From contig JAUZRV010000090.1 in NCBI GenBank assembly GCA_030950105.1, forward strand, positions 1 to 40,833: DNA of 40,833 nt. Direction: 5' to 3'. The translations under genes and the position numbers were made by a program. Positions 2,601-40,745 of the stretch are shown piece by piece. Position 1 is the stretch's first letter. Each line of letters starts with the position of its first letter. Under the pieces are notes generated by a model, which worked only from the letters and a program-made list of their open reading frames with translations, did not search any database and was not told the origin of the DNA. This stretch comes from Rhodobacterales bacterium (GTDB lineage Bacteria > Pseudomonadota > Alphaproteobacteria > Rhodobacterales > Rhodobacteraceae).

Positions 2601-2603
2601 AGT

Positions 2604-4058: not shown

Positions 4059-4082
4059 GAGGTTTCCTTTCTGGAAAAATTA

Positions 4083-4107: not shown

Positions 4108-4115
4108 AGGAAAAT

Positions 4116-5417: not shown

Positions 5418-5516
5418 AGATACGCCTTTCTGCTGCATCGACCTATTCGTCAGACACAGAGATACGGACAGCAACTTAACAGGCAGCTAACATATAAAAT
5501 GCGTTCTATTTCGTAT

Positions 5517-6371: not shown

Positions 6372-6430
6372 CTCCACCACCTATTTAATTCACCCAAGGC
6401 AAGATCTAGCAGGCAGGTGTTACAGCGGCC

Positions 6431-13244: not shown

Positions 13245-14072
13245 ATGATAAGCGTGATTATACCGGCACATAACGAAGCGGCGTTGATTGGCCAATGTAT
13301 CGGGGCGGTGTTGGCGTCCCGCGATGTTGATGCGGTGGATATCATCGTGGTGGCCAACGGGTGTCAGGACGCTACCGTTGCCATTGCAATTGATTGTCAG
13401 GCCGCTGTCGAGGCGCGGGGGTGGCAATTACAGGTGCTTGATCTGGCGTCTGGGGGCAAGCTTGGCGCGTTGAATGCGGGCGACGCCGCGGCGAAATCGG
13501 GCAATCGCGTGTATCTTGATGCCGATGTGGTGATGAGTGCGGATTTATTGGCGCAGCTTGAACAGGTTCTTGAACAGGAAACGGCGGTTTATGCCAGTGG
13601 GAAATTGCAGATTTCTCCCCCCCAAAACAGGATCAGCCGCGCGTATCGGCGGATCTACCAACGGGTGCCGTTTATGCGGTTCGGGGTGCCGGGGGCCGGG
13701 TTGTTTGCGGTGAACGCCGCGGGGCGGGCGCGGTGGCGGGAGTGGCCGGATATAATATCGGATGATACATTTGCGCGCCTTATGTTTGCCCCGGATGAAC
13801 GGATCGGGGTTGCGGCGACCTATCAGTGGCCGATTGTCGAAGGGTTGGCCAATCTGGTGGCGGTGCGGCGGCGGCAAAACACCGGCGTGGCCGAAATTGC
13901 GCAGAATTACCCTGAGTTGTTAAAGAACGACGACACGCCAAAAATCGGGTTTTCGGGCGTTTTGAAATTGGCGTTAAGCGATCCTTTGGGGTTTTTGACC
14001 TATGCGGGGGTAGCGGTGATTGTGAAGATGACCAAATCGCAGGGCGGGACCGATTGGAGGCGCGGAAGATGA
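13245..14072 (+). CDS. GT2-family glycosyltransferase
   Basis: 275 residues. The N-terminus MISVIIPAHNEAALIGQCI is the classical GT-A nucleotide-binding start, and the metal-binding D-x-D is seen as YLDADVVMS. Further family signs are GVPGAGLFAVNAAGRARW and SDDTFARLMF. The C-terminus ends with one hydrophobic helix (PLGFLTYAGVAVIVKMTK), perhaps a membrane anchor. It is likely to add one sugar residue of the repeat unit. The gene is coupled to the flippase gene downstream by a 4-bp ATGA overlap. The site before the ATG (ACAGGTG) is weak. Confidence 0.87.
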   Translation: MISVIIPAHNEAALIGQCIGAVLASRDVDAVDIIVVANGCQDATVAIAIDCQAAVEARGWQLQVLDLASGGKLGALNAGDAAAKSGNRVYLDADVVMSADLLAQLEQVLEQETAVYASGKLQISPPQNRISRAYRRIYQRVPFMRFGVPGAGLFAVNAAGRARWREWPDIISDDTFARLMFAPDERIGVAATYQWPIVEGLANLVAVRRRQNTGVAEIAQNYPELLKNDDTPKIGFSGVLKLALSDPLGFLTYAGVAVIVKMTKSQGGTDWRRGR

Positions 14073-15442: not shown

Positions 15443-15529
15443 AACCACCATTCTAAGGGTGCGATAGACCGCTAGTCTTTGTGTGAAATGACCGGAGGAA
15501 GCTGCTCTTGCGGTCTTTGGGATGTGAAT

Positions 15530-18500
15530 ATGGGTAACCAAGCAAACGCCGAACCAATCGGTGAAAATGACATAGCAATCGTTGGAATGGCCGCGCACCT
15601 GCCGGGTGCCGCGTCCATTGCGCAATTCTGGGATAACCTGCGCAGCGGCACCGAATCCATTTCGGTGCTAAGCGATGAAGAATTGCGCGCCGCAGGGGAA
15701 GACCCCGGCAAAATCCATCACCGCAATTATGTGCGCGCTGCTGCGATGCTCAAGGAATTTGACCATTTTGATGCCGATTTCTTCGGGTTTTCCCCGAAAG
15801 AAGCCGCGATTATGGACCCGCAGCACCGGCAGTTCCTGGAAGTGGCATGGGAAGCGTTGGAAAACGCCGGTCATCCGCCGGAAAATTTCGCGGGGCCGAT
15901 CGGGGTTTATGCGGGCTGTGGCATGGGCAGCTATTTCTATTTCAATATCTGTTCCAACCCCGATCTGGTGGCGGATGTGGGGATGTTTTTGCTGCGCCAC
16001 ACCGGCAACGACAAGGATTTTCTGGCCACCCGAGTGAGCCATATGTTTGACCTCAAAGGGCCAAGCATCAACATGCAAACCGCGTGCTCAACGTCGTTGG
16101 TTGCGACCCATTATGCGTGCAAGGCGTTGCTGGATGGCGAATGTGATATGGCGTTGGCCGGAGGTGTCACAATCGAGATGCCGCACGGGCGCGGGTATAT
16201 ATTTGAAGACGGTGAAATATTATCACCGGACGGGCATTGCCATGCGTTTGATCACCGCGCCGAAGGCACGGTTTTTGGGTCCGGCGCGGGGGTTGTGGTT
16301 CTGCGCCGTCTTGGGGATGCGATGGCCGATGGCGATCATATCTGGGGTGTAATCAAGGGCAGCGCGGTCAATAATGATGGCGCGGCCAAGGCCGGATATC
16401 TGGCCCCGAGTGTCGACCAACAAGCCGCCGCAATTGCCGAGGCCCACGCCATGGCGGGCGTTACCGCCGATACGATTGATTATGTCGAATGTCATGGCAC
16501 CGGCACCTATTTGGGCGATCCGATCGAGGTTGCCGCCCTGACCGAAGCATTTAGCGAAACCACCAACGACACCGGATTTTGCCGCATCGGGTCGGTGAAA
16601 ACCAACATCGGGCATACCGATACGGCGGCGGGTGTGGCCAGTTTGATCAAAACCACGCTATCGTTACATCATGGGGAAATTCCGCCCAGTTTGGGGTTCG
16701 AAAAACCCAATCCGGTGATTGATTTTGAAAACAGCCCGTTTTCGGTAAATGCCGCGTTGCACGCGTGGACATCGCACAAAGGGCCACGCCGTGCGGGGGT
16801 GAATTCCCTCGGGGTTGGCGGCACCAATGCCCATGCGGTGCTTGAACAGGCACCAGCGCGCGCCGCGTCGGACGAGAGCGATTGGCCGTTTCAAATCCTG
16901 TGCATATCAGGGCGCAACAAAGCCGCGCTTGACGCCAATTCGGCGGCTTTGGCGGCACATCTGCGCGCCCACCCAGAACAACCGTTGGCGGATGTGGCGT
17001 GGACATTAAAAGTGGGCCGTCGCGGATTTGAAAAACGTCGGGCTTTGGTGGCAGAGTCCCACGAAGAAGCCGCGGCATTATTGGAAAACGGCAACATCCG
17101 GCGGGTGTTTGACCATAGCGTTGTTGGCAACGCCCCAGAGGTGGTTTTCATGTTCCCCGGTGGCGGCGCGCAATATGTCGGCATGGCGCGCGATCTCTAT
17201 GATACAGAGCCGGTTTTTGCGCAATGGATGGATCGTGGTTTTGCCTATCTCGAGGGGAAAATCGACTATGATTTGCGTGCGCTCTGGTTGGCGCAAGACG
17301 CGGTCGCCGATGGGGCCGCCGGAGACGCCGAGGAGCGGTTAAAACGTCCGTCGGTGCAGTTGCCGTTGATCATGATGGTCGAATATGCGCTGGCGCAATT
17401 GTGGATGTCGTGGGACGTGCAACCGGCGGTTCTCGTCGGTCATAGCATGGGCGAAAATACCGCTGCGTGTTTGGCCGGCGTGATCGGTTTCGAGGATTGT
17501 ATCGGGTTGGTTCTGCTGCGTGGACAATTGTTTGATACGGTACCTGCGGGCGGCATGTTAAGCGTGGCCTGCCCATTGGATGAATTGCGCGCATTTATCG
17601 GGGACGACCTTGATATTGCCGGGGTAAATGCGCCGGATTTGACGGCTATTTCCGGCCCGCAATCGGCGTTGGATGCCTTGGCCGCGACCCTTGATACCAA
17701 GGACATTTCATATCAACGCATCGCGATTGATATCGCCGCACATTCGCGCATGTTAGAGCCGATTTTGGCGCGTTTTGGCGATTACTTGCGTGGTATTCAA
17801 CTGGCGCCACCGCGCCTGCCGTTTGTGTCAAATCGCACCGGTGAATTGATCACCGACGCGCAGGCCACCGATCCGCAGTATTGGGTCGAACACTTGCGCG
17901 GCACGATATATTTTGCCGATTGCATCACCACATTGGCCGCCAATCCACAGCGGATTTATGTCGAGATGGGACCGGGCAAAGCATTGTCATCATTGACACA
18001 AATGCACGGCGCCGTGCCATCTGGTCAAGTGTTTAGCGTGCTGCGCCACAGGGACGAAAACATCGAGGATGACCGGTATTTCCTGGGGATACTGGGGCGG
18101 TTATGGGCGACGGGGGTAGAGGCCGATTGGGGCCAATATTGGGGCGATGCCAAACGCCAAAGGGTGCCGTTGCCAACCTATGCATTTCAGCGCACGCGTT
18201 ATTTCATTGAACCGGGCAAAGCGATTGTAAGTAGCGCGGCGTTTTTGAGTCGCAAGCAAGACCTGTCGGATTGGGGCAGTCAAATCCATTGGCGGCCACG
18301 CCTTGCCGATTGCGATTTTGACCTTGAGACCGAAATGGATCGGGTGGCGCAGCAAAGTTGGTTGGTTTTCATGGATCGTGGCGGTCTTGGCGCAGAGATT
18401 GCGCGACGATTGCGCGGTGCCGGTCATCCGGTGACCGAGGTGCGCAGCGGCGATGCCTTTGGGAAAATCAGTGGGAAATCCGGCGAAGACGGGTATGTTA

Positions 18501-21500
18501 TTGCCCCCGAACACGGGCGCGCGGGGTATGACCAATTGGTGCAGGATCTTGTGGCGCGCGGGCGGGTGCCGACGCGGATTGTCAATCTCTGGCTCTATAC
18601 CGGCAGCAAGGATTTTCGCGCAGGCAGCAACGTTTTCCACCGCAATCTTGAACAGGGGTTTTATAGCCTGCTGTTTTTGGCGCAGGCGATTGCGGACGAA
18701 AACCTGCCGGTGCCGCTGCATATTACCAACATCACATCGGGTGCGATGCAGGTGCGCCAAGAGGCGTTACCTTATCCCGAAAAGGCCACCGCTATTGGTC
18801 CGTTGCGGGTAATTCCGCGCGAATTTCCGGGGGTGACCTGTAGTGCATTAGATGTGGAGCCGCCGAAGAATACCAAGGGCGCGATGGGGCCGCTTGCCCT
18901 GCGGGTTCTTGAGGATTTATTGGCAACGCCACGCAATGTGATTGCCGCGCTACGCGGTGATAAACGGTTTGAACAGGAATTGCGCGCGGTTGAATTGGGT
19001 GGGGTTGAAGGGGATAAAACCCCGCCATTGATCCGCGAAAACGGGACCTATTTGATTACGGGTGGTTTTGGCGGGATTGGTTTGACCATCGCAGAGCGCC
19101 TCGTGCGGGATCATCAGGCGCGCATTGTGTTGGTGTCGCGGGGCGGCTTGCCAGAGCGCGAAAAATGGAACGCACATCTTGCCACCCACGCCAGAAATGA
19201 TTCCGTTTCGGCGCGGATTCGGGCGGTTCAAGCGCTCGAAGATGCGGGCGGCGAGATCATGGTTGCAAGCGCCGATGTGAGCAATATTGCCGACATGCGC
19301 GCCGTTGTGGATCAGGTAAACCAACGGTTTGGCGCGATCAACGGCGTGATCCACGGCGCGGGCACGATTGACGATGCACCGCTGTTGGCAAAATCCCTGA
19401 CGTCGATTGAAAACGTATTCACGCCGAAATTGCACGGCACCGAAGTGATTGATCAATTGTTCCCTGACGGCACGCTTGACTGGTTGGTTTTGTTTGCCTC
19501 GACGAGCACGATCACCGCGCCCGCCGGACAGGTCGATTATGTCGCCGCCAATGAATTTCTCAACGCCTATGCCAAATCGCGCACGGGCGGAAAAACCCGC
19601 GTGATGGCGATCAACTGGGGTATCTGGAACGAGGTCGGCATGGCGGCGCAGGCGGTGGCGGCACGCGATTGCGCCGATGCCATCGAGGCCCCGATAGCGA
19701 TCAATATGCCGCTGCTTGACGAGGCCGGATTTGATGGTGCGGGCAACCGAATTTTCAACACAGTTTTGCGAACCGACCGCTGGGTTCTGGATGATCACCG
19801 GACCAAGGACCGGAGCGCGATTTTGCCGGGCACCGGATACCTTGAATTGGCTGCCGAGGCGCTACGTGGAAACGGCGAAAATACCGCGTTTGAAATCCGC
19901 GATCTGCTATTTTTACGCGCCCTCAAGGTGCCGGATGATGGCGCGGTTCATATGCGCGTTCGGTTGGCGCGGGGTGACGAAGGATACCGTTTCGAAGTAT
20001 TCACCAAACAGGATATTGACGGGCGCACGGGGTATTTGTTGCACGCTGAAGCGACCCTTGTGTTGGAAGATTCCGCGCAGCCAGCGGCCTTGGATATCGC
20101 GGCGATCCTTGACGATTGCCCTTTGCGGGAACATGGCGAGGGCGCGCCACTTCGATCCCCGCAAGAGGCGCATCTTGCGTTTGGGCCACGGTGGCGGGTG
20201 TTGAACAAAACCGCGATTGGCGCGACACGCGGCGTGGCGCATTTGTCGTTGCCACCGGTCGCCGCCGGTGATCCGGATGACGGGTATCTGTTGCATCCGG
20301 CCTTGATGGATCTGGCCACCGGATGGGCGATGCACCTGATCGAGGGATACGAGGCGACACACCTCTGGGTTCCGGTTTCTTACAGCAGTATCAAGGTGTT
20401 GCGCCCGCTTCCGGCGCAGACTGTTTCCGTGGTGGAAGGTGTTGGTCGCAATCAACAAGGCGACGAGACCGCGATTTTTGACGTCGATATCTGCGACAGT
20501 GACGGCGCTATTTGTGTTGCGGTGCGTGGATTTTCTATCCGCCGCCTCGACAACGCCAGCGGTCTATCGCAGACGCCGGCAATCACCGCACGCGATGTTG
20601 AATTTGACGCGGATAATACCGCCGCGCAACCCCTGTCGGCGGCAGAAGAACGCCTGCGGCATAATCTGTCGCAAGGGATCAAACCCAAGGAAGGTGCCGA
20701 GGCATTTTTGCGCGCGCTGGCCACAGATCAGGCGCAGATATTTGTGTCGTCCCTGGATATGGGCGCGTTGATTGAACAGGCCGACGCAGGTGGAGCAAGT
20801 GATGAAACTGCGGGCCAGACGTTTGAGCGGCCTGAATTGGACACCGATTATGTCGCGCCGGAAAATGATATTGAACGCACTTTGGCCGGTTTCTGGCAGG
20901 GGTTGCTCGGGGTTGATCAAGTCGGCACCAAGGACAGTTTTTTCGATCTGGGCGGACATTCCCTAATTGCGGTGCGCCTGTTTGCGATGGTGAAAAAGGC
21001 CTATCGGATCGAGTTTCCGATTTCGATCCTGTTCGAGGCCCCGACCATTGCCCAATGCAGTGCGTTGATTGCCGAACAAATTGGCGGCGCAACCGATAGC
21101 GGTGACGCGCCAGAAACATCCGGCGGGACACCCAAAACCCCGACGCGGCGGTTCAAACATCTGGTGCCGATGCATCAAGGCGAAGGCGGGACGAAAACGC
21201 CGTTTTTCCTTGTGGCAGGGATGTTTGGCAATGTGTTGAACCTGCGCCATCTGGCCCATCTTGTCGGGGCGGATCGACCGTTTTACGGGCTTCAGGCGCG
21301 CGGCCTTTATGGCGATGATGCACCGCATGAAACACTACCCGAGGCGGCGGCCGATTACATTGCCGAAATGCGTCAAGTGCAACCAAATGGTCCCTATCTG
21401 TTGGGCGGGTTTTCCGGGGGCGGCATCACCGCCTATGAAATCGCGCATCAGCTTGAGGAGCAGGGCGAAAGCGTTGCTTTACTGGTGATGCTTGATACGC

Positions 21501-21973
21501 CGTTGCCGCGGCGCCTGCCGCTTTCACGCAGCGACCGGATGTCGATCCAGTGGCAAGAGCTTAGGAAAAAAGGCATCGGGTATCCGGTGATCTGGGCGCG
21601 CAATCGTATCCGTTGGGAAATCGCCAAGCGCCGCAAGATAGACATTGGCGCGGCCAGTTGTCAGCAGTTCCATAACGCCGAAATCGAGGCGGCGTTTTTG
21701 CGCGCGGTGGCCGGTTATCCGATCAAGGGTTGGTCGGGGCGTGCGTTGTTGTTGCGGCCAAAACAGATCGGGCATTGGACGGTTGGCGGCGGTCGGTTGA
21801 TCGACAGCCAGCGCGCCTATGTTTTGCCCGATAACGGGTGGAACGGGTTGATCGAGGGCGGCATCGAGGTGATCGAAGTGCCCGGTGATCACGATTCTAT
21901 GGTGTTGGAGCCAAATGTGCGGGTTCTGGCGGCACAGATGAAGCGCCATATTGAGCAGGCGGAAGTATCATGA
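15530..21973 (+). CDS. Type I polyketide synthase, one module: KS-AT-KR-DH-ACP-TE
   Basis: About 2147 residues. Ketosynthase (about 10-430): Cys186 in TACSTS, His322 in ECHGTGT, His362 in KTNIGHTD, complete triad. Acyltransferase (about 535-850): Ser639 in GHSMG; the later motif AAHSRMLEP is neither the malonyl HAFH nor the methylmalonyl YASH form. Ketoreductase (about 920-1370): TGGFGGIG, Ser1324, Tyr1337 and an IDD motif suggesting B-type stereochemistry. Dehydratase fold (about 1405-1690): His1423 in DDHRTKD, LPGTGYLE, FGPRW and Asp1594 in HPALMD. ACP: Ser1811 in LGGHSL. Thioesterase: Ser1962 in GFSGG, His2121 in PGDH. The KR precedes the DH, opposite to the usual order. The start is uncertain: ATG 15488 and TTG 15479 are in frame upstream; 15530 gives the usual KS N-terminus. 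It is coupled to the next gene by ATGA. Confidence 0.95.
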   Translation: MGNQANAEPIGENDIAIVGMAAHLPGAASIAQFWDNLRSGTESISVLSDEELRAAGEDPGKIHHRNYVRAAAMLKEFDHFDADFFGFSPKEAAIMDPQHRQFLEVAWEALENAGHPPENFAGPIGVYAGCGMGSYFYFNICSNPDLVADVGMFLLRHTGNDKDFLATRVSHMFDLKGPSINMQTACSTSLVATHYACKALLDGECDMALAGGVTIEMPHGRGYIFEDGEILSPDGHCHAFDHRAEGTVFGSGAGVVVLRRLGDAMADGDHIWGVIKGSAVNNDGAAKAGYLAPSVDQQAAAIAEAHAMAGVTADTIDYVECHGTGTYLGDPIEVAALTEAFSETTNDTGFCRIGSVKTNIGHTDTAAGVASLIKTTLSLHHGEIPPSLGFEKPNPVIDFENSPFSVNAALHAWTSHKGPRRAGVNSLGVGGTNAHAVLEQAPARAASDESDWPFQILCISGRNKAALDANSAALAAHLRAHPEQPLADVAWTLKVGRRGFEKRRALVAESHEEAAALLENGNIRRVFDHSVVGNAPEVVFMFPGGGAQYVGMARDLYDTEPVFAQWMDRGFAYLEGKIDYDLRALWLAQDAVADGAAGDAEERLKRPSVQLPLIMMVEYALAQLWMSWDVQPAVLVGHSMGENTAACLAGVIGFEDCIGLVLLRGQLFDTVPAGGMLSVACPLDELRAFIGDDLDIAGVNAPDLTAISGPQSALDALAATLDTKDISYQRIAIDIAAHSRMLEPILARFGDYLRGIQLAPPRLPFVSNRTGELITDAQATDPQYWVEHLRGTIYFADCITTLAANPQRIYVEMGPGKALSSLTQMHGAVPSGQVFSVLRHRDENIEDDRYFLGILGRLWATGVEADWGQYWGDAKRQRVPLPTYAFQRTRYFIEPGKAIVSSAAFLSRKQDLSDWGSQIHWRPRLADCDFDLETEMDRVAQQSWLVFMDRGGLGAEIARRLRGAGHPVTEVRSGDAFGKISGKSGEDGYVIAPEHGRAGYDQLVQDLVARGRVPTRIVNLWLYTGSKDFRAGSNVFHRNLEQGFYSLLFLAQAIADENLPVPLHITNITSGAMQVRQEALPYPEKATAIGPLRVIPREFPGVTCSALDVEPPKNTKGAMGPLALRVLEDLLATPRNVIAALRGDKRFEQELRAVELGGVEGDKTPPLIRENGTYLITGGFGGIGLTIAERLVRDHQARIVLVSRGGLPEREKWNAHLATHARNDSVSARIRAVQALEDAGGEIMVASADVSNIADMRAVVDQVNQRFGAINGVIHGAGTIDDAPLLAKSLTSIENVFTPKLHGTEVIDQLFPDGTLDWLVLFASTSTITAPAGQVDYVAANEFLNAYAKSRTGGKTRVMAINWGIWNEVGMAAQAVAARDCADAIEAPIAINMPLLDEAGFDGAGNRIFNTVLRTDRWVLDDHRTKDRSAILPGTGYLELAAEALRGNGENTAFEIRDLLFLRALKVPDDGAVHMRVRLARGDEGYRFEVFTKQDIDGRTGYLLHAEATLVLEDSAQPAALDIAAILDDCPLREHGEGAPLRSPQEAHLAFGPRWRVLNKTAIGATRGVAHLSLPPVAAGDPDDGYLLHPALMDLATGWAMHLIEGYEATHLWVPVSYSSIKVLRPLPAQTVSVVEGVGRNQQGDETAIFDVDICDSDGAICVAVRGFSIRRLDNASGLSQTPAITARDVEFDADNTAAQPLSAAEERLRHNLSQGIKPKEGAEAFLRALATDQAQIFVSSLDMGALIEQADAGGASDETAGQTFERPELDTDYVAPENDIERTLAGFWQGLLGVDQVGTKDSFFDLGGHSLIAVRLFAMVKKAYRIEFPISILFEAPTIAQCSALIAEQIGGATDSGDAPETSGGTPKTPTRRFKHLVPMHQGEGGTKTPFFLVAGMFGNVLNLRHLAHLVGADRPFYGLQARGLYGDDAPHETLPEAAADYIAEMRQVQPNGPYLLGGFSGGGITAYEIAHQLEEQGESVALLVMLDTPLPRRLPLSRSDRMSIQWQELRKKGIGYPVIWARNRIRWEIAKRRKIDIGAASCQQFHNAEIEAAFLRAVAGYPIKGWSGRALLLRPKQIGHWTVGGGRLIDSQRAYVLPDNGWNGLIEGGIEVIEVPGDHDSMVLEPNVRVLAAQMKRHIEQAEVS

Positions 21974-22989
21974 GCCGGAAACCTACACTTCTTACCATTA
22001 TATTGAATTATAAAACCGCCGACATGACCCTTGATGCGATGGCGGCGGCATTGCGGGAAATGCAGGACCTGAACGGGCGGTTGATTGTGGTGGATAATGA
22101 TTCACAAGACGGATCGTTCGAGCAGTTGACGCAAGAGGTCGCAGCGCGTGCATGGGCGGGTGTCGAGGTGGTGCAATCGGGGCATAATGGCGGGTTCGGT
22201 GCGGGTAATAATGTCGGGGTTTTGGCGGGATGCGCCGATGAGATACCGGATTATATTTATATCCTCAATTCCGATGCGTTTGTTGATAAAGGCGCGATTT
22301 CGGCCTTGGTTGAGGCGCTTGAAACCAATCCCGATGCGGGGTTTGCGGGCAGTTATATTCATGGGCCAGAAGGCGATGCCCATATGACCACGTTCCGGTT
22401 TCCAAGCATCTTTAGCGAATTTGAAGGCGCGGCGCGGTTTGGGCCGATCAGCCGCCTGTTGGCGCAATACCGCGTGCCGTTGGGGGTGCCCGATACCACG
22501 CAAGAGGTTGATTGGCTGGCTGGGGCAAGCATGATGATGCGCACCTCGGTTCTTCGGGAAATTGGCCTGTTTGACGAACAGTTTTTTCTATATTTCGAGG
22601 AAACCGATTTATGTAGGCGGGCCGCACTTGCCGGTTATCCGACGTTGTTCGTGCGCGAAAGCGAAGTAACCCATATCGGGTCGGTATCGACGGGTATGAA
22701 AACCTGGACACGGATGCCGGATTACTGGTTCAAATCGCGGCAATATTACTTCACCAAAAACCATGGGGCGGTTTACGCGTCTATGGCCACCGTAGCCCAT
22801 GTTGCGGGCGGTGTGTTGTGGCGAATACGCGCCCTGATACAGCGCAAACCACAGGCCGACCCTGATCATTTCTTACAAGACCTTGTTTTTCATAATTTGC
22901 GCGCGACCCCCACCAATACAGGGGGCAAAACGGGCTGTAAAATCCCACAAATCCCACCTGTTTCTCACACGATAGGAGAAGTCCAATGA
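21970..22989 (+). CDS. GT2-family glycosyltransferase (rhamnosyltransferase-like) between the PKS and NRPS genes
   Basis: 339 residues. The N-terminus TLLTIILNYKTADMTLDAM, the segment VVDNDSQDGSF, the metal motif LNSDAFVD and the C-terminal catalytic region DEQFFLYFEETDLCRRAALA match the WbbL/rhamnosyltransferase-like GT2 group. Both ends overlap their neighbours by 4 bp (ATGA), so it is translationally coupled between a polyketide synthase and an NRPS. That arrangement suggests it acts on the same product, for example glycosylating the acyl or peptidyl unit or the glycan that receives it. Donor and acceptor cannot be read from the sequence. The last ~25 residues are low in family similarity. 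Confidence 0.87.
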   Translation: MSRKPTLLTIILNYKTADMTLDAMAAALREMQDLNGRLIVVDNDSQDGSFEQLTQEVAARAWAGVEVVQSGHNGGFGAGNNVGVLAGCADEIPDYIYILNSDAFVDKGAISALVEALETNPDAGFAGSYIHGPEGDAHMTTFRFPSIFSEFEGAARFGPISRLLAQYRVPLGVPDTTQEVDWLAGASMMMRTSVLREIGLFDEQFFLYFEETDLCRRAALAGYPTLFVRESEVTHIGSVSTGMKTWTRMPDYWFKSRQYYFTKNHGAVYASMATVAHVAGGVLWRIRALIQRKPQADPDHFLQDLVFHNLRATPTNTGGKTGCKIPQIPPVSHTIGEVQ

Positions 22990-25900
22990 CCCATTTTACC
23001 AGCCTGATAATTGGCGATGGTCCGCTGCTTGTTCAATGTGCCGAGCGCCTGTTGGCGCAGGGCAATACGATTGCATGTGTGGTCACGGGAAACGCAGAAA
23101 TTGCAGCGTGGGCAACCGGCAATGCGCTTCGGGTTGAGGCGTCTGGCGCGGGGTTGGAAAACCGGATCAAAGACGTGCAGGCTGATTGGTTATTGAGCAT
23201 TTCAAACCTGTCGTTGATCCCCGATGCGGTGCTGTCCAAGGCCGCGCGCGGGGCGGTGAATTTCCATGACGGACCGTTGCCGCGCTATGCCGGTCTGAAC
23301 GCGCCGCTATGGGCCTTGATGAACCAAGAGAGCCGCCACGGCGTGAGCTGGCATATGATTGAAGGCGGTATTGACGAGGGCGATATTGTCGAACAGCGGA
23401 TGTTTGACCTTACCCCCGACGACACCGCGTTAAGCGTGAATACCAAATGTTACGGGGCCGCCATCGAAAGTTTCGAGGCGGTGTTGGCGCAATTGGAGAG
23501 CGGTGTTTTGAAACGCACCAAGCAAGATTTGGGCCAGCGCAATTATTGCGGCGGGAACGACCGGCCAGACGCGGCGGCGCGGCTTGATTTCGGGCGACCA
23601 GCAGCGCAATTGGTGGCGTTGGTGCGCGCCCTTGATCATGGTGGTTACGAAAACCCTCTGGCGATTTCCAAGATCGAAATTGACGGGAAAATCGTTCTGG
23701 TTGGCGCGGCGGACGTGGTGCCGGTTTCCGGTGTTGCCCTGCCCGTTGGCAGCGTTATCGACAGCACCCCAAACACGGTGACCGTCGCCACATCGGAGCA
23801 GTCGATTCACCTGTCGGATTTGCGCGATATGGCCGGTGATCCCTACCGTGTGGACATAGCCAGCGGTGCGGTTTTGCCGTCCCTCACCCCCGCCGAGACC
23901 GAGGCGTTAACCGAAAAAATGGCCCAAGTGGCCAAGCGCGAAAACCATGTTCGGCGGGTTCTCAAATCTTGGGATAACGGTGGCCTGCCGTTGATCGAGG
24001 CGGCAGATGGTCCTGCCTCGTATCAGCAAACCAAAGTCACGTTCAATACTGCGATAAAGGGCGCAGATATGCCGGCATTGATTGCGGCGTTTGTTGCCCG
24101 GCAAAACGATGCGACGCATGCCTCGATTGCGCTTGATACCGGCGGAGATTACGACAGATATTTAAGCAATTGGGCACCGTTGCGGTTTGACGCGGCGCGC
24201 GATGATTTTGCGGCACAGGTTGAAACGGCCCAAAACCACGGTGGCTTTGCACGTGATTTGATCCTGCGCACCCCAGATATTTCCCTTACGCATCCCGCCA
24301 TTGGCATCACCCTGCGTGGCGGCGCGATGACCGGCTGCGCGCTCACGTTCGATCTGTCCGCTGGTGTCACCTTGCATTGGGACAATGCGCGGATTTCACA
24401 AGCCGCCAGCGATCTGATCGTGGCGCGGTTACTGGATTTTACCGAGGCCGCACGGCATGGCGCGCGCCCGTTTGCCGATTTGCCGCGCCTGCCCGCATCC
24501 GAACGCGAGATGATTGTGGATACGTGGAACGCGACCGGTGTCGATCACGCGCAAACCTGCGTGCATCAGGAATTTGAAGCGCAGGTTTTGCGCACCCCCG
24601 ATGCGATTGCCGTGGTTTTTGAAGCCGAAACCCTGACCTATGCGGCGCTTAATGCGCGCGCCAACAAGGCGGCGCATATCCTTGTGGAAATGGGGGTGCG
24701 GCCCGATACGCTCGTCGGGCTTTATATGGGGCGCTCGGTCGATCTTTTGGTGGCAGCACTTGCCATTCAAAAGGCGGGCGGGGCCTATGTGCCGCTTGAT
24801 CCGGCCTATCCGCGCGACCGGATTGCGCATTACATCAAAGACAGCGCGGCGTCAGTGATTGTGACCCAAACCGCGCTTGCCACAGATCTATCGGCGCAGG
24901 GTGCGGCGCTGTTGGTGATTGACCAAGACGCACGCATTGATGGCGCAAAAACCGACAATATCAACAGTGGTGTGACCCCCGAAAACCTCGCTTATGTGAC
25001 CTATACTTCCGGGTCGACGGGCGTGCCAAAAGGCGTGATGGTGGAACATCGCAATGTCGGCAATTTCTTTGCCGGTATGGACGCGCGCATTGATCACAAT
25101 GACAATAGTGTTTGGCTTGCCCTGACCAGCCTGTCGTTCGACATTTCGGTGCTTGAATTGTTTTACACCATCGCACGCGGTTTCAAACTGGTGATAAGCA
25201 GCGACGAAAGCCGCACGTTGGTATCGGGGGACGGGTCGGGTGTTTTGACAAAATCCGACCGTCACCTTGATTTTAGCCTGTTTTATTGGGGCAACGACGA
25301 TGGCCCCGGACCGCGAAAATACAAAATGTTGCTCGATGGGGCGCGGTTTGCCGACACCCACGGATTTAGCGCGGTTTGGACGCCGGAACGCCATTTCCAC
25401 GCATTTGGCGGGCCTTATCCAAATCCTTCGGTCACCGGAGCCGCCGTCGCGGCGGTAACCAGCAATATCGCCGTGCGATCAGGAAGTTGCGTCGCCCCGC
25501 TGCATCATCCGGCGCGTATTGCCGAAGAATGGGCGGTGATTGACAATCTGACCAACGGGCGGGCCGGTCTTGGGATCGCGTCCGGTTGGCAACCCGATGA
25601 TTTTGTGTTGCGCCCCGAAAATACACCGCCAAATAACAAGCCGGCGATGTATGAAACCATTGAAACATTGCGCAAATTGTGGCGCGGTGAAGCAGTTGAA
25701 TTCCCGCGTGAAGACGGCACCATGCACGCTGTTTTGACCCAGCCAAGGCCGGTTTCAAAGGAATTACCGATCTGGGTGACCACGGCGGGCAATCCCCAAA
25801 CATGGGTCGAAGCCGGTGAATTGGGCGCCAATGTATTGACACACCTGTTAGGGCAAAGCGTCGCCGAAGTGGGCGGTAAAATCGAACTCTATCATCAGGC

Positions 25901-27566
25901 GCTGCGGGATAACGGGCATAATCCCGACGATTTCACCGTGACGTTGATGCTGCATACATTTGTCGCCAATGATCGAGAAAAGGCGCGCGAAATTGCCCGT
26001 GGTCCGATGAAGGATTATATGCGGTCTGCCGCCGGTTTGATCAAACAAAGCGCGTGGGATTTTCCGGCGTTCAAACGGCCCAAAGGCGTTAAAAACTCGT
26101 TCGAGCTTAATCTTGATTTGCTCAGCGGAGAGGAGCTTGAGGCCATTCTTGATTTCGCGTTTGAACGCTATTTCGAGGATTCCGGCATGTTTGGCACGGT
26201 TGAGGATTGTCTTGCACGGTGTGAGCAACTCAAACGGATCGGCATTGATGAAATCGGGTGTTTGATTGATTACGGCATCGCGCCAGAGGCGGTTATGGAG
26301 GCGTTGACGCCCTTGGCCGAGATATTGAAACGGACCAATGAAGCCGTTGAAATTGCGCCGGATGATTTTTCGATCGCGGCCCAGATCCACCGTCACAAAG
26401 TGACCCATTTACAATGCACACCGTCAATGGCGCGCATGTTGGTGATGAGCGACGAAGCCGGTCAGGCCCTGCATCATGTGGATCATTTGATGATCGGCGG
26501 CGAGGCATTTCCCGGTGGTTTGGCGCATGATCTGCGCGCGCTGACCAATGGGCGGATTGAAAATATGTATGGGCCTACGGAAACCACCATCTGGTCGTCC
26601 ACCGAAGCCGTGGAAAGTGAAAGCGGTCTGGTGAATATTGGCCGGCCCATCGCCAACACGCAATTCTATGTTCTGGATGAAAATCGCGAAATTGTGCCTG
26701 TCGGCGTTGCCGGTGAACTCTATATCGGGGGGGCCGGTGTGACGCGCGGATATTGGCAGCGCGACGAGATGACCAATGAGCGTTATGTTCCCAATCCGTT
26801 TGCCAAAGGTGGGCGGTTGTATCGAACGGGTGATCTTGTGCGCTGGCGCAGCGACGGAAAAATCGATTTCCTCGGGCGGCTTGATCATCAGGTCAAATTG
26901 CGCGGCCATCGTATCGAAGTTGGCGAAATCGAGAGCCGTCTTGATGCGATAAACGACATTGATCAAGCGGTTGTTATTCTGCGCGAAGACACGCCCGGAG
27001 ACATGCGGTTGGTGGGCTATTTGCGCGGCGATGAAACGGTTTCCGAGGGCGATATTCGCGCGCAATTGGCACACCATTTGCCCGCGCATATGATGCCGGC
27101 GCATTTTGTGTGGTTGGCGCAATTCCCGTTGACGCCGAACAAGAAAATTGACCGCAGCGCGCTCCCTGCGCCGCAGCGTGCGGTGGTGCCGGTGGAGGAT
27201 GTTGCCCCGAATTCAGGCCCTGTTTCCGGCCATGAGGCACAGATTGCCGATATCTGGACCCGCATACTGGGTGTCGGAAAAATCGGGGCGCGCGACAGTT
27301 TCTTTGATCTCGGCGGTCATTCGTTACTGGCGGTTCAGGCGCATCGTGAAATCCGCGAGGCCCTTGGGGTTAAACGGTTAAGCATCACCGACATTTTCCG
27401 GTTTCCGGTGTTGGGCGACCTGTCGGGGCGCGTTGACAAATTGTTGGGCGGCACATCACAACCACCCCAAAACGCGCCAAAACAGCAAGAAAAAGCCGCC
27501 GCGCGCAATGACGCGATGTCCAAACGCCGTGCCATGCGCGCCGCGCGGCAAAAACAAACCTCGTGA
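22986..27566 (+). CDS. NRPS with formyltransferase, interrupted glycine-type adenylation domain (luciferase-like monooxygenase insert) and carrier domain
   Basis: 1526 residues. Residues 1-190: formyltransferase fold with catalytic Asn92, His94 (VNFHDGPLPRYAG) and Asp133, as in methionyl-tRNA formyltransferase. About 190-330: its C-terminal subdomain. About 330-520: looks like the C-terminal part of a condensation domain plus the linker LPASEREMIVDTWNAT, but no HHxxxDG exists. Adenylation domain from about 525: YTSGSTGVPKG and FDISVLELF. About 750-1120: FMN-dependent luciferase-like monooxygenase of the MupA/Atu3671 type (TIGR04020). Then adenylation resumes (MYGPTETTIW, GELYIGGAG, YRTGD, NKKIDR). 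Carrier: Ser1446 in LGGHSLL. Pocket residues read D-I-L-Q-M-G-M-I-W-K, near the glycine code. No thioesterase; the C-terminal tail is basic. A strong TAGGAGAAG site precedes the ATG. MtaG and MelG of myxothiazol/melithiazol are known glycine modules with a monooxygenase insert. Confidence 0.95.
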   Translation: MTHFTSLIIGDGPLLVQCAERLLAQGNTIACVVTGNAEIAAWATGNALRVEASGAGLENRIKDVQADWLLSISNLSLIPDAVLSKAARGAVNFHDGPLPRYAGLNAPLWALMNQESRHGVSWHMIEGGIDEGDIVEQRMFDLTPDDTALSVNTKCYGAAIESFEAVLAQLESGVLKRTKQDLGQRNYCGGNDRPDAAARLDFGRPAAQLVALVRALDHGGYENPLAISKIEIDGKIVLVGAADVVPVSGVALPVGSVIDSTPNTVTVATSEQSIHLSDLRDMAGDPYRVDIASGAVLPSLTPAETEALTEKMAQVAKRENHVRRVLKSWDNGGLPLIEAADGPASYQQTKVTFNTAIKGADMPALIAAFVARQNDATHASIALDTGGDYDRYLSNWAPLRFDAARDDFAAQVETAQNHGGFARDLILRTPDISLTHPAIGITLRGGAMTGCALTFDLSAGVTLHWDNARISQAASDLIVARLLDFTEAARHGARPFADLPRLPASEREMIVDTWNATGVDHAQTCVHQEFEAQVLRTPDAIAVVFEAETLTYAALNARANKAAHILVEMGVRPDTLVGLYMGRSVDLLVAALAIQKAGGAYVPLDPAYPRDRIAHYIKDSAASVIVTQTALATDLSAQGAALLVIDQDARIDGAKTDNINSGVTPENLAYVTYTSGSTGVPKGVMVEHRNVGNFFAGMDARIDHNDNSVWLALTSLSFDISVLELFYTIARGFKLVISSDESRTLVSGDGSGVLTKSDRHLDFSLFYWGNDDGPGPRKYKMLLDGARFADTHGFSAVWTPERHFHAFGGPYPNPSVTGAAVAAVTSNIAVRSGSCVAPLHHPARIAEEWAVIDNLTNGRAGLGIASGWQPDDFVLRPENTPPNNKPAMYETIETLRKLWRGEAVEFPREDGTMHAVLTQPRPVSKELPIWVTTAGNPQTWVEAGELGANVLTHLLGQSVAEVGGKIELYHQALRDNGHNPDDFTVTLMLHTFVANDREKAREIARGPMKDYMRSAAGLIKQSAWDFPAFKRPKGVKNSFELNLDLLSGEELEAILDFAFERYFEDSGMFGTVEDCLARCEQLKRIGIDEIGCLIDYGIAPEAVMEALTPLAEILKRTNEAVEIAPDDFSIAAQIHRHKVTHLQCTPSMARMLVMSDEAGQALHHVDHLMIGGEAFPGGLAHDLRALTNGRIENMYGPTETTIWSSTEAVESESGLVNIGRPIANTQFYVLDENREIVPVGVAGELYIGGAGVTRGYWQRDEMTNERYVPNPFAKGGRLYRTGDLVRWRSDGKIDFLGRLDHQVKLRGHRIEVGEIESRLDAINDIDQAVVILREDTPGDMRLVGYLRGDETVSEGDIRAQLAHHLPAHMMPAHFVWLAQFPLTPNKKIDRSALPAPQRAVVPVEDVAPNSGPVSGHEAQIADIWTRILGVGKIGARDSFFDLGGHSLLAVQAHREIREALGVKRLSITDIFRFPVLGDLSGRVDKLLGGTSQPPQNAPKQQEKAAARNDAMSKRRAMRAARQKQTS

Positions 27567-28261
27567 GTGAACGGCCCGATATCACCGCATTTGTGCAATC
27601 CCTGACTGGATCGGGGGTTGCCGTCGCGGCGATGGACATCGGGCACACAAAAGGCGCGCTTTTCCCGCAAGAACGCGCCGCTATTGCCCGGGCGACAAAC
27701 GCGCGCAAACAGGAATTTGCCACAGGTCGCGAGGCGGCGCGCCTTGCCATGCGTCGCCTTGGGGTCACGCCCGCGGAAATCCCGATGGGCGCCGACCGAG
27801 CGCCGGTTTGGCCCAAGGGATTGCGTGGCAGTATTTCCCATAGCGGTGACATTTGCGTGGCCGTCGTCTCCCGTTCCGACGTGTTTCAATCGGTTGGTAT
27901 CGATATCGAAACGGACACGCCGCTTGACGATGATCTTCTTGATACGATTTGCACCGACACCGAACAACGTTGGCTGCTAAAACAAGACGCCAACGCCCGC
28001 GGAAAATTGGCCAAATTGATATTTTCAGCCAAAGAATGTGCCTATAAGTGCCAATACCCGCTGTCATTAGAGGTGATTGATTTTATGGCGTTTGAAATTT
28101 CCCTCAACCTTGGAAATCACCGATTTGATGCCTGTTTCACCCGTCAGATTGGCCCGTTTGCCGCAGGAACGCGGTTTTTGGGGCACTATGGCGCGGCGTT
28201 CGGATCGTTCGCGACCATAATATGCCTGCCTGCCCCCAAAATCGCCACATTTCGCGATTAA
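27563..28261 (+). CDS. 4'-phosphopantetheinyl transferase, EntD/Sfp type
   Basis: 232 residues. It activates carrier proteins by moving phosphopantetheine from coenzyme A to their conserved serine. Motifs visible are the GSISHSG block (about residues 89-95), the Mg-binding VGIDIETD (about 112) and FSAKECAYKCQYP (about 154). The GTG start overlaps the NRPS stop by 4 bp (GTGA). The targets are expected to be Ser1446 of the NRPS and Ser1811 of the polyketide synthase. Having its own transferase supports an independent, functional assembly line. It is the last gene of the four-gene coupled set; a 91-bp gap follows. Confidence 0.93.
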   Translation: MSERPDITAFVQSLTGSGVAVAAMDIGHTKGALFPQERAAIARATNARKQEFATGREAARLAMRRLGVTPAEIPMGADRAPVWPKGLRGSISHSGDICVAVVSRSDVFQSVGIDIETDTPLDDDLLDTICTDTEQRWLLKQDANARGKLAKLIFSAKECAYKCQYPLSLEVIDFMAFEISLNLGNHRFDACFTRQIGPFAAGTRFLGHYGAAFGSFATIICLPAPKIATFRD

Positions 28262-28352
28262 CCAATTCTCTAAACACATTTAGGCGAATCGTAACCGCCT
28301 TGGTCGTAAATAGAAGCACGCGAGAATCGTGTGTCTTAGTCGGAGTATTGGT

Positions 28353-29621
28353 GTGGAGAAATTCCTGCCCCTAAGCGAACTTATCGCGGCCTTTCGGCGG
28401 CATGTGATGATGTTTGCCGTCATCGTTGTGCTTGGGATGGTTGTTTCGGTTGTTTACGCGCTGAATCAGCCGCGCATTTACCAGACGACGGCCATGATTC
28501 AGGTGCTGCAACCAACCATCGCCAACCCACGCGATAGTGGCACATCTTCCGCCCCTACCTTGCAGCTTTTGCAGGTGGTTGAGCAGCGCCTCATGACGCG
28601 TGACAATCTTATCCGGATGATCGAAAAACACGGGCTATATGCCAATCCGCCAAACATCCCCATGGCGGATAGGGTGCTCAAGCTACGGCTGGCAACGCAG
28701 GTCGAAATGATTGTCGACCCGAATTTGCGCTGGCGGTCCGATATTTCACCCACGGCTCTTTTGGTCCGCGTTTCCGATGGTGATCCGGCGTTGGCCGCGA
28801 TGCTCGCCAACGAATTTGTTGCAAGCATCATTGAGCAAAACCGCCAAAGCCGCGCCGATCAAACGGGCACCGCGCTCGCCTTTTTTGAAAGCGAGGAACA
28901 GCGTGTAGGACGTGAAATTGCGCGACTGGATGCCCAGATCGTGGCGTTCAAGGAGGCAAACGCCGACTTGCTACCTGACGGATTGGCAGCGCTGCGCGTG
29001 CAGCTTGCCACATTGGAGGAAACCCGCCTCGAACTTGAAAGCCAAATAGCCGAATTGAACAATGGCACCGCGAACGGGGCAACCGCCGTGGTCAACAAAC
29101 GGTTGGCGCAGCTTGGTGTTCAATACAATCTCATCGAGCAGCGACGGCAATCAATTATCAATCTGATTAACCAGGCCCCACAAGCGGAACGGCAACATTT
29201 GGTTTTGACCCGAAAATTGCAACAATTGACCGACCAATTTGAAGTGATCAACCAAAGCCGCGCCAAGGCCAAAATGGATCAAATGCTTGAGGCGGGACGC
29301 CAAGGAGAAAACTTCAAGGTTCTGGAAACCGCCCTTGTTCCGGTGCATCCGATCGCACCAAATCGCAAAAAAATTGCAATGACCGGCAGCGCCGCAAGTG
29401 TGGTTCTGGCGTTAGCCCTCATTTTACTGCTTGAAATGCGAAAGCCGGTAATTCGGACGTCGGCCCAATTGGAGCGGCGGTTGAATTTACGGCCCGTTGT
29501 GGCAATTCCAACGCTCACACCTATATCGAAAAGTGGGTTTGCCCGTTTGAAAACCGGAGCCTTTATGGCCCTTGGTGGAATATTTATCGCTCTGGTTATG
29601 GTGTTTGTCTTCTCATCCTGA
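28353..29621 (+). CDS. Wzz/GumC-type polysaccharide chain-length (co-polymerase) protein, no kinase domain
   Basis: About 422 residues. Two membrane helices (residues about 22-40 and 345-365, with a third at the extreme C-terminus about 400-420) flank a large periplasmic region with long coiled-coil stretches (REIARLDAQIVAFKEANADL, LEETRLELESQIAELN). This is the Wzz/GumC/ExoP topology. The PxxPxxPxxxxA-like segment before the second helix is seen as VPVHPIAPNRKK. There is no C-terminal Walker-type tyrosine kinase (Wzc BY-kinase). The GTG at 28353 is chosen because CGGAG lies 7 bases upstream; a GTG 24 bases earlier is open. It probably sets chain length together with the Wzy-like protein. Confidence 0.87.
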   Translation: MEKFLPLSELIAAFRRHVMMFAVIVVLGMVVSVVYALNQPRIYQTTAMIQVLQPTIANPRDSGTSSAPTLQLLQVVEQRLMTRDNLIRMIEKHGLYANPPNIPMADRVLKLRLATQVEMIVDPNLRWRSDISPTALLVRVSDGDPALAAMLANEFVASIIEQNRQSRADQTGTALAFFESEEQRVGREIARLDAQIVAFKEANADLLPDGLAALRVQLATLEETRLELESQIAELNNGTANGATAVVNKRLAQLGVQYNLIEQRRQSIINLINQAPQAERQHLVLTRKLQQLTDQFEVINQSRAKAKMDQMLEAGRQGENFKVLETALVPVHPIAPNRKKIAMTGSAASVVLALALILLLEMRKPVIRTSAQLERRLNLRPVVAIPTLTPISKSGFARLKTGAFMALGGIFIALVMVFVFSS

Positions 29622-30063: not shown

Positions 30064-30199
30064 GAATCGCAAATGAGAGGAGTTGATTGGCGCCCGCCCG
30101 TCAGGTCCAATTTTGCCCGCCCTTTTTGGCGGAATAATTTGCTGTGCCTGGCAATGTTCTCAGGTTCACTTGTCGTCCGCTTGTCGGAAGGGTTTCAAT

Positions 30200-30865
30200 A
30201 TGTCGTTTTACTCAAGTAGAGATTTCGCAAATAATCTTGTCATAAATGCGGCTGTATCGGGGCTTTACCGCGATCATGCCAAACGCGCTCTCGATTTTTG
30301 TCTTGCATTGCTGCTTGCTCCTGTTGCCGTTCTTTTGCTGGCACCGCTTGCCGCTTTGGTTGCGCTTGATGGCACATCGCCGTTTTATTGGCAAAAACGC
30401 GTCGGTTTGCGCGGGCGTGAATTCTATATGCTGAAATTACGCAGCATGGTGCCAAATGCGGATGCTTTGCTTGTTGCCTATCTCGCCGAAAATCCAGAGG
30501 CACAGCGCGAATGGGATTTCCATCAGAAACTAAAGCATGATCCGCGCATTACCCGAATTGGCCGATTTATCCGCCGCACATCTCTTGATGAATTGCCGCA
30601 ACTTTGGAATGTTTTCACCGGTGAAATGTCGTTGGTAGGCCCGCGCCCGATCATGTGCGACCAACGCGAGATTTACCCCGGTTCCGCTTACTATCTGATG
30701 CGCCCCGGCATTACCGGTCTCTGGCAGGTTTCCGATCGCAACGAATGTAGCTTTGCCGAGCGCGCCATTTTCGACACTAAATATCACCGTCAAATGTCAT
30801 TTATGGCAGATATTTCGGTGATTTCACGCACCGTTGGTGTCGTTTTCCGCGCAACGGGTCACTAA
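30200..30865 (+). CDS. Polyprenyl-phosphate sugar-1-phosphate transferase (ExoY/WcaJ-like priming enzyme)
   Basis: 221 residues. It should start glycan synthesis by moving a sugar-1-phosphate, often galactose or glucose, onto undecaprenyl phosphate at the inner membrane. Signs: KRALDFCLALLLAPVAVLL (membrane helix), SPFYWQKRVGLRGREFYMLK then LRSMV, and the conserved SLDELPQLWNVFTGEMSLVG, PRP and PGITGLWQVS. The short form lacking the large N-terminal membrane domain is typical of ExoY. The ATG at 30200 has GGAAGGG upstream; a TTG at 30083 would add 39 residues of unlike sequence. Its end overlaps the convergent glycosyltransferase by 4 bp. Confidence 0.93.
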   Translation: MSFYSSRDFANNLVINAAVSGLYRDHAKRALDFCLALLLAPVAVLLLAPLAALVALDGTSPFYWQKRVGLRGREFYMLKLRSMVPNADALLVAYLAENPEAQREWDFHQKLKHDPRITRIGRFIRRTSLDELPQLWNVFTGEMSLVGPRPIMCDQREIYPGSAYYLMRPGITGLWQVSDRNECSFAERAIFDTKYHRQMSFMADISVISRTVGVVFRATGH

Positions 30866-32240: not shown

Positions 32241-33644
32241 ATGCCCAATACGCTCGCCTATATTATGTTGCTGATCTGGCCGATTGTGACCTATTTGCTG
32301 TTTCGCTATCTACCACGGTCGCGGGCGTTGGTGTGGACGGTGTTGACCGGATATCTTTTGCTGCCGCCGCTGCCCGCAGCCATTGATTTCCCGCTGTTCC
32401 CACCGTTGAACAAAGACGTTTTGCCAAATTTTTCGGCCTTTATTATTTGCCTTTTGTTCCTGCCAAAATTTCCGTCATTGATCCCGCGTTCACCAATTGC
32501 ACGCCTGTTAATCGCGGTTTTTGTGCTTACCCCGATCGCCACAGTTCTGGGCAATAGCGAGCCGATAACATTTGTTGACGGGGCATTGCCGGGCCTGCGC
32601 ATTTTTGATGCCGTCGCGATGGTGATCAATCAATTCATCCTGTTGCTCGGTTTTTTGTTGGCGCGCTCCATCCTGCAAACGCCCGAGGCGCAGCGTGATT
32701 TATTGGTGGCGCTATTGCTCGGCGGGTTGGTATATTCGGTGCCGATGTTCATCGAAATCCGGCTTTCGCCGCAATTGAATCTGTGGGTTTACGGCTACTA
32801 CCAACACCTGTTTGAACAGAGTATTCGCGGTGATAGTTTCCGCCCGCAAGTCTTCCTGTTTCACGGAATTTGGGCGGCATTTTTCACCATGACGACCGTG
32901 GTTGCCGGTTTTGCATTGGCCCGTCAAAGCAAAACGTTCGTGCGCCAGAGATATCTCGTTTCGGCGCTTTATCTGGTCGTTTTATTGGTCCTGTGCCGGA
33001 CATTGGGCGCGCTTATATATGGTATTGCCCTTGTGCCACTGGTTATCCTTGCCGGCAACAAAACCCAGATCCGCATAGCGACGGTCTTGGCCACGCTTGC
33101 CCTGCTCTATCCCACCTTGAAAAGTGCCGATTTGGTGCCGACAAATGCGATGCTTAACGCCGCCGAAAGCATAAGCCCCGAACGCGCCCACTCTCTTAAA
33201 TTCCGGTTTGATAACGAGGATTTATTACGCAATCGCGCCAATGAAAAGCCGCTATTCGGGTGGGGATCATGGGGGCGCAATCACGAACATAATCCTGTGG
33301 ATGGCACCATCACCACCGTGTCTGACGGGCGTTGGATTATCACGCTCGGGGTGTTTGGCTGGGTCGGATTTCTGGCCGAATTTGCCCTGCTTGGTTTGCC
33401 GATTTTCCTGCTTTGGCGCGAGGTGCGTCACCTGCCAAGTTCCAAAATATCCCCGTTTTTGGGGCCGCTGGTCCTTCTTCTCGCGATTAATCTTGTGGAT
33501 TTGATCCCCAACGCGACGCTAACCCCGCTGACTTGGTTGCTTTCGGGGGCGTTGCTTGGCCATGCTGAATTGCTCGCCCGTCAACGCCGCGGGGGAACCC
33601 AAGGGAGGGAAGATCGCCCACCCCGCCACCGGACGGTGATCTAG
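32241..33644 (+). CDS. Wzy-type polymerase / O-antigen-ligase-like membrane protein
   Basis: 467 residues with roughly ten to twelve hydrophobic helices. Wzy polymerases and WaaL ligases share this topology and a large periplasmic loop; here the loop appears to lie around residues 300-370, with DNEDLLRNRANEKPLFGWGS then WGRNHEHN, close to the PLFGWG motif seen in the Wzy_C family. It would link repeat units flipped by the Wzx-type protein. Polymerase and ligase cannot be separated by sequence, but Wzx, Wzz and a priming transferase nearby favour polymerase. The gene is followed after one base by the next glycosyltransferase. Confidence 0.82.
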   Translation: MPNTLAYIMLLIWPIVTYLLFRYLPRSRALVWTVLTGYLLLPPLPAAIDFPLFPPLNKDVLPNFSAFIICLLFLPKFPSLIPRSPIARLLIAVFVLTPIATVLGNSEPITFVDGALPGLRIFDAVAMVINQFILLLGFLLARSILQTPEAQRDLLVALLLGGLVYSVPMFIEIRLSPQLNLWVYGYYQHLFEQSIRGDSFRPQVFLFHGIWAAFFTMTTVVAGFALARQSKTFVRQRYLVSALYLVVLLVLCRTLGALIYGIALVPLVILAGNKTQIRIATVLATLALLYPTLKSADLVPTNAMLNAAESISPERAHSLKFRFDNEDLLRNRANEKPLFGWGSWGRNHEHNPVDGTITTVSDGRWIITLGVFGWVGFLAEFALLGLPIFLLWREVRHLPSSKISPFLGPLVLLLAINLVDLIPNATLTPLTWLLSGALLGHAELLARQRRGGTQGREDRPPRHRTVI

Positions 33645-40608: not shown

Positions 40609-40745
40609 AATGCTCTCCTTGCGCGGCTTTTTAGGTCTATCTGTGCCTAGCATATCATTTCATCACTGACACACTGAAATCGGGTTAACGATGAATCAGG
40701 GCGATTTACTGAAGGTTAGAAAGTTGTTGCAAATCATAGGGGTAT

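Follow-up and report, generated by a model that had tools for sequence, protein, structure and literature searches.

The window analysed here, the 40,833-nucleotide contig JAUZRV010000090.1 of a Rhodobacterales bacterium (assembly GCA_030950105.1, family Rhodobacteraceae), carries a nonribosomal peptide synthetase (NRPS) gene as the third of four consecutive genes, the others encoding a type I polyketide synthase (PKS), a GT2 glycosyltransferase and a phosphopantetheinyl transferase (PPTase). Successive genes overlap by 4 bases each (ATGA, ATGA, GTGA). The NRPS, a single open reading frame (ORF) at 22986-27566 on the forward strand (1526 amino acids), is built from known parts. The chemistry proposed earlier for the module is plausible and partly supported, and the larger story is probably that of an initiation module serving a PKS within a surface-polysaccharide locus. 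As the window is one contig of a 350-contig genome, linkage was rechecked in genomes with long contigs. Domains were called by Pfam and NCBIfam profile searches, which gave the following features:

15530..21973, forward strand: type I PKS with the order KS-AT-KR-DH-ACP-TE (profiles), the proposed acceptor of the glycyl unit
21970..22989, forward strand: GT2 glycosyltransferase, overlapping PKS and NRPS
22986..23570, forward strand: formyltransferase (F) catalytic domain, NRPS residues 1-195, with N92, H94 and D130 (PF00551; Fmt/ArnA fold by AlphaFold and Foldseek)
23571..23900, forward strand: formyltransferase C-terminal subdomain, residues 196-305 (weak PF02911; full Fmt-like fold)
23901..24545, forward strand: C-terminal half of a condensation (C) domain, residues 306-520 (hhalign, conservation)
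24558..25211, forward strand: first part of the adenylation (A) domain, A1-A4, residues 525-742 (PF00501; A3/A4 motifs)
25272..26324, forward strand: luciferase-like monooxygenase dependent on flavin mononucleotide (FMN), residues 763-1113 (TIGR04020; PuwE 6ket)
26364..27164, forward strand: second part of the A domain, A5-A10, residues 1127-1393 (profile match, alignment)
27240..27431, forward strand: peptidyl carrier domain (PCP), residues 1419-1482, with S1446 (PF00550; DLGGHSL kept)
27432..27563, forward strand: basic C-terminal tail of the NRPS, ARxDAMxxRRAMRAxR (alignment)
27563..28261, forward strand: Sfp-type PPTase, overlapping the NRPS

The likely start of the PKS is the ATG at 15530; the mechanical ORF start is a TTG at 15479. 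In the NRPS, Pfam matched Formyl_trans_N (56-155), Formyl_trans_C weakly (197-287), AMP-binding (from 530) and PP-binding (1419-1482), and the profile match to the second A part spanned 1126-1393. The insert matched Bac_luciferase at 773-1088 (E 1e-50), and TIGR04020 at 763-1113 with 470 bits against a cut-off of 244, over profile positions 1-340 of 341. It follows motif A4 (SFDISVLELF, 717) and precedes A5 (NMYGPTETT, 1193). Profiles and AlphaFold models thus bear out the order given by an earlier sequence-only reading of this DNA (formyltransferase, condensation-like remnant, first part of the A domain, monooxygenase, second part, carrier), including the position of the insert. A chance match or an artefact is ruled out by the single open frame, the TIGR04020 score far over its cut-off and the conservation in many genera.

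The hand-aligned, glycine-type pocket code of the same reading, DILQMGMIWK, also held. Across a comparison set of 19 other genera of the family, aligned to the window NRPS, the code is DILQ[M/L/F/Y]GMIWK, in which position 299 alone varies and the M at position 322 is invariant. No code clearly other than glycine was obtained, nor were conserved FMN-site residues lacking in the insert. In a wider set, the GM(I/V)W code also occurs in monooxygenase-bearing A domains of modules that have a C domain, in myxobacteria and others. Of the 19 genera, 18 retain the formyltransferase triad (N92/H94/D130), and the carrier serine is found wherever there is a carrier; in G009 the ORF is truncated, leaving the K517 position and the carrier unreadable. 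The ortholog in G126 (L035) has lost the catalytic His and Asp of the formyltransferase, with its remaining domains intact. Mean identity to the window was highest for the monooxygenase (75%, with 109 invariant residues), followed by the carrier (67%), the A-domain parts (61%), the formyltransferase (51%) and the condensation remnant (27%), the fastest-evolving part. Selection is therefore strongest on the oxidation step. The basic tail is conserved in almost every genus whose C-terminus is complete, though the linker preceding it varies, and it may be a docking element or helix.

Structure prediction agreed with these assignments. The AlphaFold model of residues 1-520 (pLDDT 91) matched Fmt and ArnA (2fmt, 1fmt), and that of residues 515-1485 (pLDDT 79) matched both the GrsA A domain (1amu, TMt 0.89), which shows that the insert leaves the A fold undisturbed, and the PuwE monooxygenase (6ket, TMt 0.89, 44% identity). 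PuwE was also the best sequence match of the monooxygenase in the PDB (E 5e-102). Residues 306-520 had no Pfam family match. Because the formyltransferase dominates the Foldseek matches of the model covering it and the remnant, which were to formyltransferases only, the remnant was tested by profile comparison. Its family profile matched the C-lobe only of true C domains (hhalign 98.1%, controls at most 1.5%), and the match begins past their HHxxxDG region, a motif that was not found in any F-containing relative examined. The condensation-like remnant suspected earlier is therefore real but without its catalytic lobe, whose place is taken by the formyltransferase.

Among 397 genomes of the family, each representing another genus, 143 had a TIGR04020 match above the cut-off, almost always in a frame of about 1500-1600 amino acids; the protein is thus conserved in roughly a third of the genera sampled. 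The cassette itself has been described before. A PKS, glycosyltransferase, NRPS and PPTase cassette with an uncharacterised product occurs in 28 of 57 roseobacter genomes (PMC4337385) and is listed as an orphan secondary-metabolite cluster (PMC4337385, PMC5014874); according to these two papers, the four-gene cluster is credited to Martens 2007. The window has the same four genes together, in the order PKS-GT2-NRPS-PPTase. PKS, GT2 and NRPS are syntenic in all 19 other genera, and the PPTase was detected in 15. We found no functional study of the roseobacter cluster in the open literature, although subscription papers may hold a published answer. What we add to the published cluster is the formyltransferase and monooxygenase anatomy, the NRPS-to-PKS order and the polysaccharide locus. 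The sequence-only reading had missed the family-wide conservation, the published cassette, the PKS as likely acceptor and the polysaccharide genes.

In a tree built from A-domain plus monooxygenase sequences, F-containing modules formed one group (53 rows, SH-aLRT 97; one of them, L094, is cut short by its contig). An inner group of 43 rows (SH-aLRT 99) comprised Rhodobacterales together with Agrobacterium, G649, G542 and a Myxococcota metagenome-assembled genome (MAG), and had a polysaccharide context throughout, where the flank sufficed. Sphingobium is polysaccharide-linked yet falls outside this inner group.

Several observations suggest that the assembly line most likely runs from NRPS to PKS, though the PKS gene lies first on the DNA. 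The NRPS starts with a formyltransferase and lacks a functional condensation domain; by profile search only the PKS has a thioesterase (TE), the NRPS ending after the PCP and its basic tail. No condensation domain (PF00668) was found in the whole genome, which is 99.6% complete, while control genomes were positive. This and the C-lobe-only remnant rule out a chain-extending module fed by the PKS. The PKS is intact in its KS, AT, KR, DH, ACP and TE catalytic residues across the family. The direction is further supported by gene order in relatives, as the gene for the same NRPS lies directly upstream of a PKS of the same type in Acanthopleuribacter, Salinivenus, Comamonadaceae, Sphingobium, Terricaulis, Ruegeria HKCCA6707 and G424, an NRPS-first pair that spans several other orders and phyla; in G689 an additional A-PCP-TE follows the PKS. 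It is also supported by a 4096-amino-acid protein of Streptomyces zagrosensis (L113:10001-22291), which joins an F-A-PCP module to a PKS in one chain (F-A(methyltransferase)-PCP-KS-AT-DH-ER-KR-ACP-reductase). That protein apparently puts an N-formyl-N-methyl amino acid starter on its PKS. Finally, sequence distances in the monooxygenase are correlated with those in the KS (r = 0.91 over 49 loci, 0.89 in the cross-order subset, 0 of 2000 permutations each), which reflects joint inheritance and would equally follow from plain vertical descent; the correlation is more telling because three different gene orders occur among the loci.

Two other arrangements were seen among relatives. G144 (L031-L032), of the same family, has a different multi-module NRPS/PKS cluster in which a related F-A(monooxygenase)-PCP stands directly ahead of a PKS. 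A Burkholderiales MAG (L109:9983-14590) encodes a stand-alone F-A-PCP-PCP-TE protein that lacks a monooxygenase.

Comparison with known systems indicates what the module may make. MtaG and MelG (myxothiazol, melithiazol), to which the sequence-only reading had likened it, share the glycine A domain and, as PMC10204066 confirms, a monooxygenase between a4 and a5. Unlike the window NRPS, which is F-initiated and has neither an active C domain nor a TE, they are terminal, with a C domain upstream and a TE downstream. Terminal amide formation was rejected as the main role. Module 4 of SolF (solanimycin) likewise has a glycine A domain with an inserted flavin monooxygenase, and its alpha-hydroxyglycine is retained in the chain, but the insert lies between a8 and a9 and the module is internal, with a C domain. 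The initiation module of LgrA (linear gramicidin) has a formyltransferase N-terminal to A and PCP, whereas no condensation remnant between F and A has been described there, it has no monooxygenase, and it uses another amino acid. The catalytic N-H-D residues of F-A-PCP initiation modules such as LgrA and CongA are present in the window NRPS, on an Fmt fold. In the loading modules of CongA and OzmO (conglobatin, oxazolomycin), an F-A(Gly)-PCP starter, formylglycine in conglobatin, is likewise passed to a PKS (PMC4504003); these lack a monooxygenase, and a separate cyclodehydratase makes the oxazole. No cyclodehydratase was seen among the annotated window genes, and conglobatin-like oxazole formation was set aside. 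The PuwE monooxygenase (puwainaphycin) is the closest solved structure and makes a 2-hydroxyacyl group, although it stands between PKS and NRPS modules and not inside an A domain. It acts on a fatty acyl chain and yields a 3-amino-2-hydroxyacyl product (PMC4219810). Other relatives hydroxylate polyketides alpha to the thioester (PMC8739492), and alpha-hydroxylation of glycine is documented for SolF, MtaG/MelG and a stand-alone skyllamycin enzyme (PMC10204066). The TIGR04020 insert shares its fold with PuwE, and its fold and the 109 invariant residues with the rest of the family; it may likewise carry out FMN-dependent hydroxylation alpha to a thioester.

By analogy, then, the most likely carrier-bound product would be N-formyl-alpha-hydroxyglycine. 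Of the formylated, alpha- or N-oxidised glycyl thioester proposed earlier, the formylated oxidised glycine stands as likely, whereas N-oxidation finds no support, the chemistry cited for TIGR04020 being alpha-hydroxylation. The A domain would activate glycine and load it on the PCP, the inserted monooxygenase would hydroxylate the alpha carbon of the thioester-bound glycine, and the formyltransferase would cap the nitrogen with a formyl group from formyl-tetrahydrofolate; the order and site of these two modifications are tentative. On chemical grounds, the cap may stabilise a carbinolamine that would be labile as a free amine. Nothing upstream is expected to feed the NRPS, because the catalytic lobe is missing from its condensation remnant. 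The N-formyl-alpha-hydroxyglycyl group would then pass to the KS of the PKS, whose gene lies two places upstream. One malonyl-type extension, presumably a single round, followed by reduction (KR) and dehydration (DH), would yield a 4-formamido-4-hydroxybut-2-enoyl-type group on the ACP. The PKS thioesterase would release or transfer this acyl group which, with the help of the GT2, may be placed on a Wzx/Wzy polysaccharide, either at the repeat unit or at a precursor sugar, as gene linkage suggests.

The genes around the cassette include an initiating transferase, Wzx, Wzz and several glycosyltransferases, as in a Wzx/Wzy-dependent locus, with Wzy assigned by its 11 transmembrane segments and position only:

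14054..15442, forward strand: Wzx-type flippase (PF13440)
28329..29621, forward strand: Wzz-type chain-length protein (PF02706)
30083..30865, forward strand: Bac_transf initiating phosphoglycosyl transferase, WbaP-like (PF02397, TIGR03022 partial)
32241..33644, forward strand: putative Wzy-like multi-membrane protein with 11 predicted transmembrane segments, no family match
39853..40653, reverse strand: WecG/TagA/CpsF glycosyltransferase (PF03808)

This linkage was reproduced in the comparison set. PKS, GT2, NRPS and WecG occurred together in all 19 other genera, with Wzz in 17, Wzx in 14 and a Wzy-like protein in 14. Of the 20 genomes searched, 16 had a single PF03808 match, and every one had a copy within about 18 kb of the NRPS; by our estimate, the chance of meeting that gene in 36 kb taken at random from a 4-Mb genome is about 1%. 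Annotation by PGAP placed flippase, polysaccharide export or sugar-transferase genes beside the cassette in Ruegeria conchae, Aminobacter sp. MSH1 and Shinella zoogloeoides, with a dTDP-rhamnose operon alongside in R. conchae, and polysaccharide genes were also found at the cassette in Sphingobium, Agrobacterium AGB01 and the Myxococcota MAG. A Wzx/Wzy-type polysaccharide locus thus surrounds the cassette in every one of the 19 syntenic genomes, as it does in Rhizobiaceae, Phyllobacteriaceae, Sphingobium and a Myxococcota MAG.

Elsewhere in the window, genes for an AT3-SGNH acyltransferase, a GMC oxidoreductase and SDR proteins lie at 35562-39858, a set that recurs near the cassette in G173, G351, G318 and L091. 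At the left end, flagellar genes (FlgI, flagellin-like, FlgK, FlgE, MotB-like) occupy 490-6380 on the opposite strand.

Our best explanation, which we rate as a real possibility lying close to an even chance, is that the initiation module makes N-formyl-alpha-hydroxyglycyl-S-PCP, the PKS adds one round, and the resulting acyl group becomes a substituent of a surface polysaccharide. Several points weigh against it. In Rhodobacterales the gene order on the DNA is the reverse of the proposed direction, docking between NRPS and PKS is hypothetical, and the same genome holds a second type I PKS of at least 1966 amino acids on a short contig (L187, G000 contig C67) that might be an alternative NRPS partner. 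The AT of the PKS (17438-17764) carries the motifs IAAHS and GHSMGEN, nearly invariant across genera; as they fit neither the malonyl nor the methylmalonyl signature, the extender is uncertain and may be unusual. The cluster is an orphan, and the loss of the triad in G126 suggests that formylation may be dispensable there. In addition, for L106, L095, G424 and G689 the queries used gave no polysaccharide genes within the stretch examined, and the enzyme pair can thus work in other settings too.

Such relatives outside the polysaccharide clade, the TE at the end of the PKS and the traditional listing as a secondary-metabolite cluster (PMC4337385, PMC5014874) would fit a free or glycosylated secreted small molecule (a signal, metal ligand or antibiotic), with the polysaccharide genes as mere neighbours or the GT2 glycosylating the product. 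We regard this as rather unlikely, since the WecG-type linkage is universal in the 20 genomes around a mostly single-copy gene, the polysaccharide link recurs in other groups with different gene orders, and no dedicated small-molecule exporter is encoded next to the cassette in the window. The same linkage could instead mean that the PKS/NRPS product is a special lipid that carries or anchors the polysaccharide for export, as has been proposed for the RkpA-type synthase of rhizobial capsule loci. This seems improbable to us, because a PKS of one module that starts from formylglycine and lacks an ER should yield an acyl group that is short and polar, and no lipid, unless the PKS iterates, and an undecaprenyl-type Bac_transf initiator is present.

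Two further alternatives concern the building block. The insert position and glycine code shared with MtaG/MelG, where the carbinolamide is cleaved (PMC10204066), could suggest that the hydroxylated formylglycyl thioester collapses to a glyoxylyl thioester, with formamide, as the unit passed on. We doubt this strongly. MtaG/MelG stand at the end of a line and act on an incoming peptidyl chain, whereas the present NRPS has no functional C domain and no TE; a conserved formyltransferase would serve no purpose if the nitrogen were lost; and solanimycin B retains its carbinolamide (PMC10204066). N-hydroxylation would instead give N-formyl-N-hydroxyglycine, a hydroxamate that could bind metal on the polysaccharide; iron is classically bound by N-hydroxy-N-formyl groups, and a formyltransferase and a flavin monooxygenase are both at hand. 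It appears very improbable nonetheless, given that the nearest and cited monooxygenase relatives hydroxylate the carbon alpha to the thioester (PMC10204066, PMC4219810, PMC8739492, PMC12971057).

For an orphan cluster that represents a widely conserved assembly line in an abundant marine group, the analysis therefore proposes what the building block is, in which direction synthesis runs and where the product goes, to the surface polysaccharide. The chance that this settles what the cluster makes is good. The broader claim, that a widespread alphaproteobacterial surface polysaccharide is covalently decorated, across orders, by an NRPS-PKS acyl unit starting from N-formyl-alpha-hydroxyglycine, is possible but is held more tentatively. 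An assembly line usually read as secondary metabolism would then serve the biosynthesis of a cell-envelope polymer. Should the proposal for the cluster be right, it would add a polymer substituent and explain how a search for free small molecules could miss the product, and the formyltransferase-monooxygenase glycine module would be usable for engineering.

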